Source: Candidatus Bathyarchaeota archaeon (GTDB lineage Archaea; Thermoproteota; Bathyarchaeia; TCS64). Taken from it: a stretch of DNA of 64,000 nt. A program made the position numbers and the translations under genes. Positions 1,039 to 8,305 of the stretch are shown piece by piece. The stretch spans positions 248,001 through 312,000 of the forward strand of contig JASLYX010000001.1 of the NCBI GenBank assembly GCA_030739585.1, given 5' to 3'. The notes under the pieces were generated by a model that made no database searches, was not told where the DNA came from, and saw only the letters and a list, made by a program, of their open reading frames with translations. The first letter of the stretch is position 1. Each line of letters starts with the position of its first letter.

Positions 1039-1473
1039 TCAGGTGTCCAGGACGACCCTGAGGTTCCAGCCTTCATCCGTCTGCTCAATTTTCATCATGT
1101 GAAAAGTGACTGCCTTTATTGCGATTCCTTGGGTATGGCGAGTCAGGTCAAAGGACTCACCGTGACAGACCGCCTTGAGGGTAAATCTTTCCTGGTCGAT
1201 CTCCAAGTCAAAACCCGAGAATACAATAAGGTCTATCTCCTGAAGGTATAGAAGCTCATCTAAGAAGTTGAAGAGGAGGGCCTCAAGATCGTGTCCTTCT
1301 ACCTCGAATTCTCGAGTCTCATTTCTGCTGATCCCCTCAATGGGGGTGATCGCGTTGAACAGCGCGATTGCGGACTGCTGGAAGACGTCGTCCAGAGTCC
1401 CTCCCCATGCATCAACTGTGAGATCAGCTGTGGGACCATCCTCGGCATAGCTAAAGCCTGGTGTCATTCCCAC
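1039..1473 (-). CDS. Archease
   Basis: 144 residues, the usual length of archease, a small metal-binding protein that activates the RtcB RNA ligase by helping its guanylylation and multiple turnover. The visible family pattern is an N-terminal TADL segment with WG shortly after, a central LEALLFNFLDELLYL helix, GESFDLTRH, KAVTFHMM, and the C-terminal RVVLD whose acidic residue binds calcium in characterised members. The start overlaps the end of guaA by 10 bases, so the two are likely cotranscribed, with guaA first. The gene for its partner RtcB lies about 4 kb away in this window. Confidence 0.88.
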   Translation of the reverse strand: MGMTPGFSYAEDGPTADLTVDAWGGTLDDVFQQSAIALFNAITPIEGISRNETREFEVEGHDLEALLFNFLDELLYLQEIDLIVFSGFDLEIDQERFTLKAVCHGESFDLTRHTQGIAIKAVTFHMMKIEQTDEGWNLRVVLDT

Positions 1474-3026
1474 TCTATTGTAGCGGGTGGTTTATGAGTG
1501 ATGTCATAAACAACCCGGGTGACCCCTGGGATAGAGTTGGTTATACGGGTAGATATTCGCTCTAGGACTTTCCAGGGGGCCTTGGAGAAGTTCGCGGTCA
1601 TCCCGTCGACGCTCTCCACGATGCGGACTGCGCAGGTGAGGCCGTAGTCTCTTTCGTCCCCCTTAACCCCCGTGCTTCTGGTGTTCGTGAGGATGGCGAG
1701 ATACTGCCAGGCAGAATCCCTGAGGCTTGAGGTCTCTACTTCTTCACAAACTATTGCATCGGCCAGTCTTACGGCTTCAACCTTCTCTAAAGTAACCTCC
1801 CCTATGATCCTTATGGCAAGGCCGGGTCCCGGGAAGGGAGGCCGCTCGATTATGAAGGGAGGCATGTTGAGGCGGGCTCCGAGGGCTCGGACTTCATCCT
1901 TATAAAAGTCTCGGAGGGGTTCGATGATCCCTTTGAACTTGATATCTGAAGGGATGCCACCGACGTTGTGGTGGGTTTTAATTGTGTCTGATCCGCTACG
2001 AAAGCCTGACTCTATCCGGTCAGGGTAGATAGTGCCTTGGATTAGGTACTCTGCGCCGGTGCGCATCGCCTCGGCCTCGAAGACCCGGATGAACTCCTCC
2101 CCAATGATCTTTCGCTTCTCCTCGGGGTCTAAGACTCCCTTAAGTTTCTCTAGGAAGCGCTCCTGGACCCTCGCCACGACGAGATCGACCCCCATCTTGT
2201 TGAAGGTCTTCTCAACGGCGTCGGATTCGTTCATTCTCATGAGGCCGTGGTCTACATGGACCGCGACAAGCCTGTCCCCTATGGCTTTGGCTGCAAGGGC
2301 AGCGGCAACGCTGGAGTCAACTCCGCCACTCAGGGCAATGATGGCACTTGAATTTCCTATGGTGTCCTGGATCTCCTTGACAGCCGTCTCTATAAAGTCG
2401 GCGGGCCTCCAGTTCCGTTCGCTCTGGCAGATGTCAAGGAGAAAGTTCCGGAGCATATGTTTCCCCTTGTTGGTGTGAACTACTTCGGGATGCCACTGGA
2501 GGCCGTGGAGGGGCTTCGTCCTGTGCATGAATGCCGCCACAGGGGAGGTCCGAGTGTGGGCGAGAACCTGGAAATTCTCAGAGAGACTGAAGACGGTGTC
2601 ACCGTGGCTCATCCAGACCTTTTCTACCGGGTCCAGTCCATTTAGGATTCCGATTGGAAAATCGATGGTGGCCTCTGTGATACCGTACTCCCTCTGCTTT
2701 CCTCGTCGAACATCGCCATCATGCATGTGGGCCATAAGCTGGTGGCCATAGCAGAGGCCAAGGACTGGGACTCCAGTCTCTAGGATTCCATCGCTCAGTC
2801 TAGGCGAGTCCTTAATACTGAGGCTGGCAGGGCTCCCGGATAGGATGATTCCCTTGAGGTTCATTACGTCCTGGAGCTTGTTGAGCTCCGAAATGGTGGC
2901 GTCGTATGGGAGGATCTCGGAGTAGATGTTCATCTCCCTGACCCTGCGGGCAATAAGATGGCAATACTGGCCGCCAAAGTCCAAGATGGCGATGCCGTCT
3001 GGTTTCCCTAGCTTGGAGGTCCCCAT
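1464..3026 (-). CDS. guaA: GMP synthase (glutamine-hydrolysing)
   Basis: 520 residues covering both domains on one chain. The class I glutamine amidotransferase domain comes first: the nucleophile Cys92 is in LGLCYGHQ and the His-Glu pair is in WHPEVVH. The ATP pyrophosphatase domain follows with the PP-loop SGGVDSSVAA, and the C-terminal dimerisation domain ends in THKPPATIEWE, the classic GuaA tail. It converts XMP, ATP and glutamine to GMP in the cytoplasm. Many euryarchaea split this enzyme into two genes; the fused form is seen here. An ATG with an AGGGAG ribosome site supports the start. Archease overlaps its end. Confidence 0.96.
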   Translation of the reverse strand: MGTSKLGKPDGIAILDFGGQYCHLIARRVREMNIYSEILPYDATISELNKLQDVMNLKGIILSGSPASLSIKDSPRLSDGILETGVPVLGLCYGHQLMAHMHDGDVRRGKQREYGITEATIDFPIGILNGLDPVEKVWMSHGDTVFSLSENFQVLAHTRTSPVAAFMHRTKPLHGLQWHPEVVHTNKGKHMLRNFLLDICQSERNWRPADFIETAVKEIQDTIGNSSAIIALSGGVDSSVAAALAAKAIGDRLVAVHVDHGLMRMNESDAVEKTFNKMGVDLVVARVQERFLEKLKGVLDPEEKRKIIGEEFIRVFEAEAMRTGAEYLIQGTIYPDRIESGFRSGSDTIKTHHNVGGIPSDIKFKGIIEPLRDFYKDEVRALGARLNMPPFIIERPPFPGPGLAIRIIGEVTLEKVEAVRLADAIVCEEVETSSLRDSAWQYLAILTNTRSTGVKGDERDYGLTCAVRIVESVDGMTANFSKAPWKVLERISTRITNSIPGVTRVVYDITHKPPATIEWE

Positions 3027-3133: not shown

Positions 3134-4363
3134 ATGAGGCTTTTCGTTCCCGCCTATGAGTGGTACGGCTGGGAGGATGTAGCGCTCGAGTTTCCTGAGT
3201 CTTGGGATGTTAGGGAGATCAGGATGGAAGGCCACAACGAAAAGTCTCTCAATGGAGGTGATCTAGCCAAGAGGTTGAGACGTCCCGTTGGAACTCCGCC
3301 CCTCAGCGAGCTCGCCCGCGGTAAGAAAAGGTGTGCCATTGTCTTCGATGGCATGACCCGGCCCACTAAGGTCTTTCAGATGCTCCCCGCGGTCCTTAGT
3401 GAGTTATGGGAGGGGGGTATTGAAGACGATCACATCGTCTTCATGATGGCGAGCGGGGCCCAATCGGGGCCGATGCTCTTCGACTTCCAGAAAAAACTGG
3501 GAGCGGAGATCCTGAAGAAGTATTTGGTTTTCAACCATAACCCTTATGATAATCTGGTAGAGCTCGGGGAGACCAGTAACGGGAGCCCAATTCACATCAA
3601 TAAAGAGGTGATGGGATGCGACCTCAAAGTCACTATTGGGGCCCTATTGCCACATCTCGGTTACGGCTTTAGCGGTGGCTCCGAAATGATCCTTCCGGGG
3701 ATCGCTGGCATCGAATCCATCATCCACAATCACCGGATCAGGGAAGGGACGGGATCTGGGAGCGTTGAAGAGAACATGAGGAGGCTAGATTCAGAGGAGA
3801 CCGCGAGAATGGTTGGGGTTGACTTCGTTGTTAATGCCATCCTGAACGCCCGGTGCGACGTCTCGGATCTAGTCTGCGGGGATGTTGTCAATGCCCACAG
3901 AGAGGCGGTAAAACGGGCCCGTAAGCATTATGTTACACAGCTCTGGCACGGGGCTGATGTAGCGATAGGGAACGGCTACCCTATGGCCAACGAGGGTTAC
4001 ACGGCTTATAGGATCGCCGAGGAGTCCGTTCGGGACAAGGGGGACCTCGTGTTTCTCCTTTATACCCCAGAAGGATGTAGGGTCAACTATTATAACGGGC
4101 GTTTCGGGACGGAATATGGGGGGAGGGGATGGAGACCTGACATCTACATCAAACAGCCCTGGAAGATGAATAGAGTGTTAGTGGTTGCCCCCGAGATCCA
4201 AAAGTCGGACGGGTGCTACTACGGGAATGGCTCTGTCTGGGTAAATGACTGGAGGATTGCCCTGGAGCATCTCATGGACAGGAACGGTAGGGATGCCAAG
4301 ATCGCCGTCTATCCTACGGCGGCGATGCAGATCTCGGAGAGGATCTCCAAACAAAGAATCTAG
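3134..4363 (+). CDS. LarA-superfamily protein (DUF2088) lacking cofactor-binding lysine
   Basis: 409 residues with the overall pattern of nickel-dependent lactate racemase LarA: TRP near residue 75, an ASG segment near 108, PH at 173-174 and GFSGG at 178-182, then PGI and a histidine at 200. Known LarA uses Asp72, Arg75, His108, His174, Lys184 and His200; Lys184 carries the nickel-pincer cofactor. Here Lys184 is Glu184, the GTH histidine is Gln110, and the Asp before TRP appears replaced by Gly or shifted. His174, His200 and the Arg remain. It is therefore unlikely to be a standard nickel-pincer racemase, and its substrate is unknown. It stands alone, divergent from guaA. Confidence 0.8.
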   Translation: MRLFVPAYEWYGWEDVALEFPESWDVREIRMEGHNEKSLNGGDLAKRLRRPVGTPPLSELARGKKRCAIVFDGMTRPTKVFQMLPAVLSELWEGGIEDDHIVFMMASGAQSGPMLFDFQKKLGAEILKKYLVFNHNPYDNLVELGETSNGSPIHINKEVMGCDLKVTIGALLPHLGYGFSGGSEMILPGIAGIESIIHNHRIREGTGSGSVEENMRRLDSEETARMVGVDFVVNAILNARCDVSDLVCGDVVNAHREAVKRARKHYVTQLWHGADVAIGNGYPMANEGYTAYRIAEESVRDKGDLVFLLYTPEGCRVNYYNGRFGTEYGGRGWRPDIYIKQPWKMNRVLVVAPEIQKSDGCYYGNGSVWVNDWRIALEHLMDRNGRDAKIAVYPTAAMQISERISKQRI

Positions 4364-7207: not shown

Positions 7208-7336
7208 TCATCTATGGTCCTCTGCGGTAGAATTGATCTTAATGGGCGTTATCAGCCAATCCTTACCCCTCACTGGCCAAGTCAGAAGACCATAATACTC
7301 GATTTCATTATTCTCTAATAGGCATAGGAAATCCAT
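7208..7336 (-). CDS. Possible small ORF or gene remnant, 42 residues
   Basis: A minus-strand ATG at 7336 opens a 42-codon frame reading ENNEIEYYGLLTWPVRG and then DWLITPIKI, ending in TGA at 7208-7210. The composition is protein-like. The frame one step over just upstream also reads plausibly (RSIIRFLMKKDGFPMPIRE), so this may be the tail of a frameshifted gene rather than an independent small gene. No family is recognised and there is no clear ribosome site. Confidence 0.25.
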   Translation of the reverse strand: MDFLCLLENNEIEYYGLLTWPVRGKDWLITPIKINSTAEDHR

Positions 7337-7662
7337 CTTTTTTCATTAGAAACCTAATGATAGATCTTTTTATCTCGTTTGCCAACCGCCACACTGTTCA
7401 AGAAAAGTCTTAACTTAGCAGTCTGAGTTTCTGTCGTAGTATTTTTCCTCGCGCACTGGAGTCTCATTATTCGCTTTTGTAATCACAAAACTCGAGTAAA
7501 CATATCTATCTAACCTCGTAACTCCCATGGTCCTTCTCTCAGAGCCATTGTGATGCTGACTAACGTCCTAGCCCCAGTCCGTTTGAGCTATGAAAGGGAA
7601 TGGTGTTAAACGCAATGGTTTTGAATACCAGCTTAATGATCTCCTCCCCGACAACAAACAAT
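7337..7662. other. Non-coding gap, no clear gene
   Basis: The stretch between the possible small ORF and the HD-domain gene is AT-rich with stops in all frames. It contains a TCGCGCAC element at 7449-7456, one of several CGCG-core elements found in the gaps of this window. I see no RNA gene or repeat. Confidence 0.4.
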
Positions 7663-8211
7663 TCACAGCCCTATCTCGTCACTAACCGACTGCATCGCCT
7701 CGATACTCAATGCGAGGAACGTATTAAGGTCCAGCCCTATCTCTTCGCACCTAATGATATTTTCTCTATTCACCTTACGCGCGAAAGACTTGTCTTTCAT
7801 TCGCCTCCTCAGGCTCTTTGGTTTCATGCCCTCGAGTCTAGTAGGCCTTACAAGGGCACCAGCAACTATCATGCCAGAGATGGCATCAGCTGCAAAGAGA
7901 CTGATCTCCATCCTACTCTCCGCTTTAACCCCTGTCATAGGGTTATGGGCCCTGATGGCCTTTAGTCCTATTTCGGGCAGGAAATTTTCCACTATCGAAG
8001 CAGATAGGAGTCCATGTCTGAGGAAGTCATTGCTGGTCCTTTCGTAGTCAACGTCATGGAGCATCCCTACAGCCTCCCAAAGAGTTGGGTCCTTGCCAAA
8101 ATGATTTGCCATACTTTTCATGATTGCAGAGACTGCAATCATATGATTCACGAGATTCCTATTCTTAACATGATTCTTAACTAGCCTCAGAGACTCTTCT
8201 CGTGAGATCAT
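7663..8211 (-). CDS. HD-domain phosphohydrolase
   Basis: 182 residues. The HD metal-binding pattern is visible: a first histidine in NLVNHMIAVSAIM, then the HD doublet in GMLHDVDYE, then histidines in FLRHG and RAHNP, and a final aspartate in FAADAISGMI. This is the small HDIG-type family often annotated as predicted hydrolases acting on nucleotides or phosphates. The substrate cannot be inferred. The gene is monocistronic or first in a minus-strand run; the next genes downstream are convergent or unrelated. Confidence 0.8.
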   Translation of the reverse strand: MISREESLRLVKNHVKNRNLVNHMIAVSAIMKSMANHFGKDPTLWEAVGMLHDVDYERTSNDFLRHGLLSASIVENFLPEIGLKAIRAHNPMTGVKAESRMEISLFAADAISGMIVAGALVRPTRLEGMKPKSLRRRMKDKSFARKVNRENIIRCEEIGLDLNTFLALSIEAMQSVSDEIGL

Positions 8212-8305
8212 ATTTGAGAATTCGGAGCCATCCTCGTTTAAGCCTTAGGTCTCTGGTTTTTATTCATAACGAGCTGCGTGAGATTTTTAGCTAAAGGCTG
8301 AGAAA

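Follow-up and report, generated by a model that had tools for sequence, protein, structure and literature searches.

A LarA-family protein with a partly lost active site in a Candidatus Bathyarchaeota genome

A LarA-family gene next to guaA

The DNA analyzed here (the window) is a 64,000-nucleotide stretch of a Candidatus Bathyarchaeota genome (contig JASLYX010000001.1, positions 248,001 to 312,000). On its forward strand, at positions 3134 to 4363, lies a gene with an ATG start that encodes a LarA-family protein of 409 amino acids, the active site of which is partly lost. The source genome (G000) is in 28 contigs, with 95.09% completeness and 2.67% contamination, and the gene is located on a contig of 443,538 bases. 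Its divergent neighbor is a gene that we take to be GMP synthase (guaA; 1464 to 3026, reverse strand), adjoined by what is presumably an archease-like gene (1039 to 1473, reverse strand), and these two genes served as synteny anchors; positions 33 to 449 presumably hold the end of an aminotransferase-like gene. The neighborhood with guaA and the archease gene is common to genomes G254, G253, G250, and G255, and the six named relatives are Candidatus Bathyarchaeota MAGs. A paralog with an intact site (L003; contig C1, 245932 to 247158) is divergent from this putative aminotransferase-like gene, which is likewise present on the guaA contig of G237, together with a LarA homolog that has L003-like motifs (L077). 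Ten neighboring proteins from five ortholog loci comprise CBS-domain, DUF7347, receptor-family ligand-binding, MutL, DUF362, amidohydrolase, and MFS proteins and two proteins without a match. As no partner gene shared across these five loci was found, we propose no substrate for the protein.

By homology, the protein is a member of the LarA superfamily, as indicated by a Lar_N match (PF09861) with an E value of 3.6e-46 and a score of 157.4 bits against a Pfam cut-off of 23.3 and by a predicted two-domain LarA fold. The AlphaFold model has a mean pLDDT of 93.5, and in VIA-align it shares its fold with the lactate racemase LarA of Lactobacillus plantarum (Z of 45.4 over 388 residues for 8ezf and 43.0 for 5huq) and with the malate racemase Mar2 (36.3 for 6d6z), the best non-LarA row having a Z of 5.1; since the underlying alignment consists mostly of relatives with intact sites, the model means that the sequence fits the fold and is not proof of folding. 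The nearest PDB entry by sequence is Mar2 (4.5e-40). The protein falls below the cut-off of every listed NCBIfam LarA model, the best being the LarAH6 malate racemase model NF052593 (214.7 versus 500 bits), for which two orthologs with intact sites are likewise under 500 bits (246.1 and 231.2).

Replacement of active-site residues

Among 256 genomes of the class, 74 places in 43 genomes matched at an E value of ≤1e-40, and 72 of these places were retrieved (G215:C152 and G222:C131 were left out); with the divergent homolog L004 and an incomplete copy of the window gene added, 74 distinct frames were aligned. Eleven orthologs from ten genomes of the same family are 60 to 65% identical to the window protein, followed by G217 at 52% and G255 at 48 to 50%, and these sequences align with it over their full length, except where G255 is cut by a contig end and G237 has a TGA. 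The second half of the G255 relative also diverges sharply from the others, as that of a recombinant would, and G253 carries two near-identical ortholog copies on two contigs.

Residues are numbered here after L. plantarum LarA (PDB 5huq) and were placed by alignment with LarA and Mar2. According to a passage of PMC7583248, binding of the nickel-pincer cofactor (NPN) is assigned to R75, K184, and H200 and catalysis to D72, H108, H174, and K298. In the window protein, the tether lysine K184 is replaced by Glu (codon 184, GAA, positions 3683 to 3685; AAG or AAA in the 11 orthologs), the catalytic His108 by Gln (codon 110, CAA, 3461 to 3463; CAC or CAT in the orthologs), and Asp72 by Gly (codon 73, GGC, 3350 to 3352; GAC or GAT in the orthologs). 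Retained are the arginine that contacts the cofactor phosphate (Arg75; codon 76, 3359 to 3361), the second catalytic base His174 (codon 174, 3653 to 3655), and the nickel ligand His200 (codon 200, 3731 to 3733), all on the forward strand. The original prediction, that Lys184 is Glu, that the GTH histidine is Gln, and that His174 and His200 remain, is thus borne out by the alignment with LarA and Mar2, which also excludes a misreading of these residues. The prediction had further described the Asp of the DxTR motif as lost or shifted; it is lost and not shifted, because the orthologs read D-D-M-T-R and the window protein reads D-G-M-T-R, the first Asp being an ordinary neighbor.

Four further polar positions that are invariant among the orthologs are altered as well: K290T (codon 290, ACG, 4001 to 4003, aligned with LarA Gln295; Lys in 11 of 11 orthologs), H293R (codon 293, AGG, 4010 to 4012; His, encoded by CAC or CAT, in 11 of 11, at least three base changes apart), H318N (codon 318, AAC, 4085 to 4087), and E360G (codon 360, GGG, 4211 to 4213). 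The residues at 318 and 360 are His and Glu, respectively, in the 11 orthologs and in G217, G229, L002, and L003, and their loss adds to what had been predicted. All 11 orthologs thus keep D72, H108, K184, K290, H318, and E360, and the window protein has lost all six. The Lys298 loop is missing from the window protein and from the orthologs alike and is therefore uninformative on the window gene alone. Lysines that occur in the window protein and in no more than two of the 11 orthologs are located at positions 46, 65, 128, 264, 302, and 406; as judged from their sequence positions, none of these six falls within an NPN motif, and a substitute tether lysine was rejected at the level of sequence. 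Compared with LarA and Mar2, the protein shares Arg75, His174, and His200 and is missing Lys184, His108, and Asp72. Among the features of an NPN-dependent racemase or epimerase, it therefore has His200, Arg75 (R76 in its own numbering), and a genome with larB, larC, and larE, and it lacks the K184 tether, the H108/H174 pair, and Asp72.

The changes are concentrated in the active site, and their combination is so far seen once

Among 69 other Bathyarchaeia LarA homologs (of the 74 rows, L007, a part of the window gene, the partial L102 and L103, and the divergent L004 were left out), 31 columns have the same residue in at least 90% of the sequences. The window protein deviates at exactly three of them, D72, H108, and K184, each of which is conserved in 69 of 69 homologs elsewhere; the deviations thus comprise three of six known LarA site residues versus none of the 25 other conserved columns. 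The chance of this three-column result is 0.0044, and that of a test with an eight-residue site is 0.0041; because the gene had been singled out for its K184 change in the first place, these values are softened to 0.023 and 0.020, respectively, when conditional on K184. The three-residue deviation is more than chance. The window protein also differs at 16 of the 156 columns that are invariant among the 11 orthologs (G217 and G255, which are less similar or partial, were omitted, and both keep the three residues). This is the most of any member, with leave-one-out deviations of 0 to 12 in the others, the 12 being those of G237. Columns of D, E, H, K, or R make up 9 of the 16 changed columns versus 30 of the 140 unchanged ones (P = 0.005), and some of the 16 changes are conservative ones (two of V to I, one of T to S, and one of A to T).

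All three residues are kept in 13 of the 13 nearest readable relatives (48 to 65% identity); a further one, L102 from G216 (51% over 136 residues), keeps D72 and H108 and has masked bases at position 184. In a tree of 33 proteins, the window protein is nested in a clade of 13 rows (support of 100/99), the other 12 of which keep all three residues, and its end branch of 0.49 is the longest in the clade except for that of the partial G255 (0.8). As the gene is nested among relatives with intact sites, the loss of D72, H108, and K184 is derived and so far seen once. The original prediction had proposed a separate branch, for which conservation of Glu184 in close relatives would have been a marker. 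Neither idea holds, since Glu184 is not conserved (Lys is present in 13 of the 13 nearest relatives readable there) and, among the sequences read, no other gene has this set of residues.

Other LarA-fold proteins with altered sites occur in the group. A family homologous to LarA and typified by L004 and L104 (G000, C4:104040-105344) is present in 33 of 256 genomes of the class (E ≤ 1e-60); it has no Lys184, and it has Asp at position 174 and Arg at position 200 in 20 of 20 members read and, at position 108, Arg in 17 and His in 2 of the 20. Judged from this residue pattern, the L004-type active site is a conserved but replaced one; both this family and the window protein are LarA homologs without Lys184, with the L004-type family representing a separate loss. 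A search of 398 genomes of the phylum with the DNA pattern G-[FY]-x-G-G-x-E-x3-P-G, which admits only Phe or Tyr at the second position and only Glu at 184 and would therefore overlook other losses, yielded seven matches: the window gene, L124, L125, L126, and L128, plus L129 and L130, which have no LarA match. L124, L125, L126, and L128 (from G014, G163, G164, and G354) are divergent LarA-fold proteins that have Glu184 and keep His174, and they lack Arg75 (4 of 4), His108 (4 of 4), and His200 (3 of 4). With these further site residues lost, they were ruled out as the same case as the window gene. These sequences suggest that Glu184 has more than one origin.

Cofactor genes and LarA homologs with intact sites

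The genes larB, larC, and larE, which it had been suggested to seek in the genome, are all present, together at C4:64976-67902 and each over its cut-off. The genome also encodes two LarA homologs that keep D72, H108, and K184, namely, L002 (C4:23389) and L003, the latter some 4 kb away from the window gene. With its own larB, larC, and larE and homologs with intact sites, the genome did not force the loss in the window gene through lack of the cofactor.

Among the 27 genomes of the family (f1), LarC was detected in three (G000, G238, and G249), LarB over its cut-off only in the same three, and LarE over its cut-off only in G000. The LarC match starts at base 14 of its contig in G238 and ends at base 3225 of 3292 in G249, so larE may have been cut off in these two genomes. 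When any match is counted, including those below the cut-off, LarB is found in 25 and LarE in 26 of the 27 genomes; these weaker matches probably represent related enzymes of other function, and one such LarE match in G000 falls in guaA. The ten family genomes that carry an ortholog with an intact site yielded no larC, and neither larB nor larE reached its cut-off in them. Their completeness ranges from 74 to 96% (G232 is one contig at 92%, and G237 is at 96%), and missing sequence is an unlikely cause in ten genomes at once. Class-wide, LarC occurs in 83 of 256 genomes; of the 43 that have a LarA homolog matching the window protein at an E value of ≤1e-40, 10 have LarC and 33 have no detectable larC, distant LarA types being uncounted here. 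The orthologs with intact sites in the ten family genomes either obtain the cofactor via another route or use something else. The lack of detectable larC, and in the family of larB and larE over the cut-off too, raises the question of the cofactor source, which is arguably a larger puzzle than the window gene itself.

A probably retained fold with a lost site or, possibly, a gene in decay

The reading that we favor, with a confidence only somewhat better than even, is that the gene encodes a LarA-fold pseudoenzyme retained for a noncatalytic role, whether residual or newly acquired. It would descend from an ordinary LarA-type enzyme in which the nickel-pincer site was lost, with the tether lysine, one catalytic histidine, the catalytic aspartate, and other polar residues replaced. 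Such a protein would be unable to racemize or epimerize 2-hydroxy acids by the proton-coupled hydride mechanism and would lack covalent NPN. It may act by binding, e.g., of a 2-hydroxy acid, or as a partner or regulator of one of the LarA homologs with intact sites. The frame shows no gap relative to 7 of the 11 orthologs and one missing residue relative to the other 4. In a codon model written for this analysis (11 of the 12 group rows, with the near copy G253b omitted, and 406 codon columns), omega was 0.031 on the window branch versus 0.030 for the background, values that are rough because synonymous sites are saturated, and fixing omega at 1 on the window branch was worse by 30.1 lnL units. 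The frame and the predicted fold are intact, and selection on the branch was on average of the same strength as among the orthologs; the fold therefore stayed under selection during the loss of the active site.

The main rival, which we consider unlikely although well above negligible, is a recent inactivation in which catalysis was unneeded and the residues drifted while the frame is not yet broken. Losses elsewhere in the genus lend it weight. At the syntenic place in the sister species G237, there is a remnant over 46 codons that is 56% identical to residues 1 to 48 of the window protein; it is divergent from guaA and near the archease and aminotransferase genes (L140, about 3497 to 3634, reverse strand). 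A second copy in G237 (L056, about 7221 to 8216) has an intact site and an in-frame TGA in place of the Trp codon conserved in the other 10 orthologs. No ortholog was found in G235 and G236 (best matches of 1e-13 and 4.9e-38 in genomes that are 70 and 76% complete, respectively). The gene is therefore dispensable in the genus, which is in the process of losing it. The 16 deviations from invariant columns, the highest number of any member, point the same way. When a neutral tail was added to a two-class model on the same 11 rows and eight tails were tried, the best was 0.05 changes per codon, with a gain of 1.07 lnL units that is not significant; this tail fits G237 equally well. Tails of 0.15 and 0.2 were 2.8 and 5.8 lnL units below the best, and by interpolation the data are compatible with a neutral tail of at most some 0.13 changes per codon.

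Against decay stands the concentration of the deviations in the active site. In neutral simulations from the G246 gene (2,000 runs for each of five tails from 0.02 to 0.2, with indels uncounted), no more than 0.3% of the runs for any tail showed changes at three or more of the six site residues without a stop. In addition, codon 293 is at least three base changes from the orthologs, which is unlike a very recent event.

Comparison with known LarA homologs

A third possibility is that the enzyme was re-purposed, with Glu184, His174, and His200 forming a new metal site or with untethered NPN supporting a one-histidine reaction. This is in the spirit of the original prediction of a different metal site or reaction, and we regard it as rather improbable. 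In its favor, the fold is predicted to be intact, and the replacement of Lys by Glu leaves Arg75, His174, and His200 in place. There are also known LarA homologs that have just one catalytic histidine, LarA Sp and LarA Bw (PDB 9q3k and 9q3j), one of them solved with NPN, as described in part of PMC12611868. In that group, however, His174 is the residue replaced, by Asn, and the NPN-linking lysine is marked in the alignment legend of the same source, whereas the window protein keeps His174 and has lost His108 and the lysine; it thus does not belong to the one-histidine subfamily as defined by Asn at 174. Moreover, the new residues are shared by no other ortholog, and two conserved C-terminal residues, H318 and E360, are missing as well, which looks like loss and not rebuilding. 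The specific version in which the NPN site was rebuilt as a mononuclear H174/H200/E184 metal site, giving an NPN-independent enzyme beside NPN-making genes, seems less probable still. Both decay and a loss of catalysis in a retained fold explain the data with fewer assumptions than a different metal site or reaction does.

Loss of K184 alone need not stop NPN binding, by analogy with the LarA of T. thermosaccharolyticum, which is stated in a section of PMC11796402 to hold NPN noncovalently; its sequence retains the lysine in our alignment (2yjg). A passage of PMC11851776 describes the tether lysine as universally conserved, and for LarAH groups 12, 13, and 16 (Desguin 2020) an excerpt of PMC7583248 remarks that catalytic and NPN residues are not conserved. 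This remark is the nearest precedent in the accessible portions of the open-licence literature, in which we found neither a LarA with a substitution at this lysine nor any account of LarA in Bathyarchaeota or of a pseudoenzyme among LarA proteins.

An assembly or sequencing artefact is very improbable: although the genome is a draft in 28 contigs of the completeness and contamination given above and the only assembly available for the species, the changes are several separate in-frame substitutions on functional codons of a long contig with no frameshift, and errors would not favor catalytic codons.

If the favored reading of a retained, noncatalytic LarA-fold protein is true, the window protein would provide a natural control for the roles of NPN tethering and of the His108/Asp72 pair, and it would represent a case of the birth of a pseudoenzyme that can be compared with close relatives whose sites are intact.
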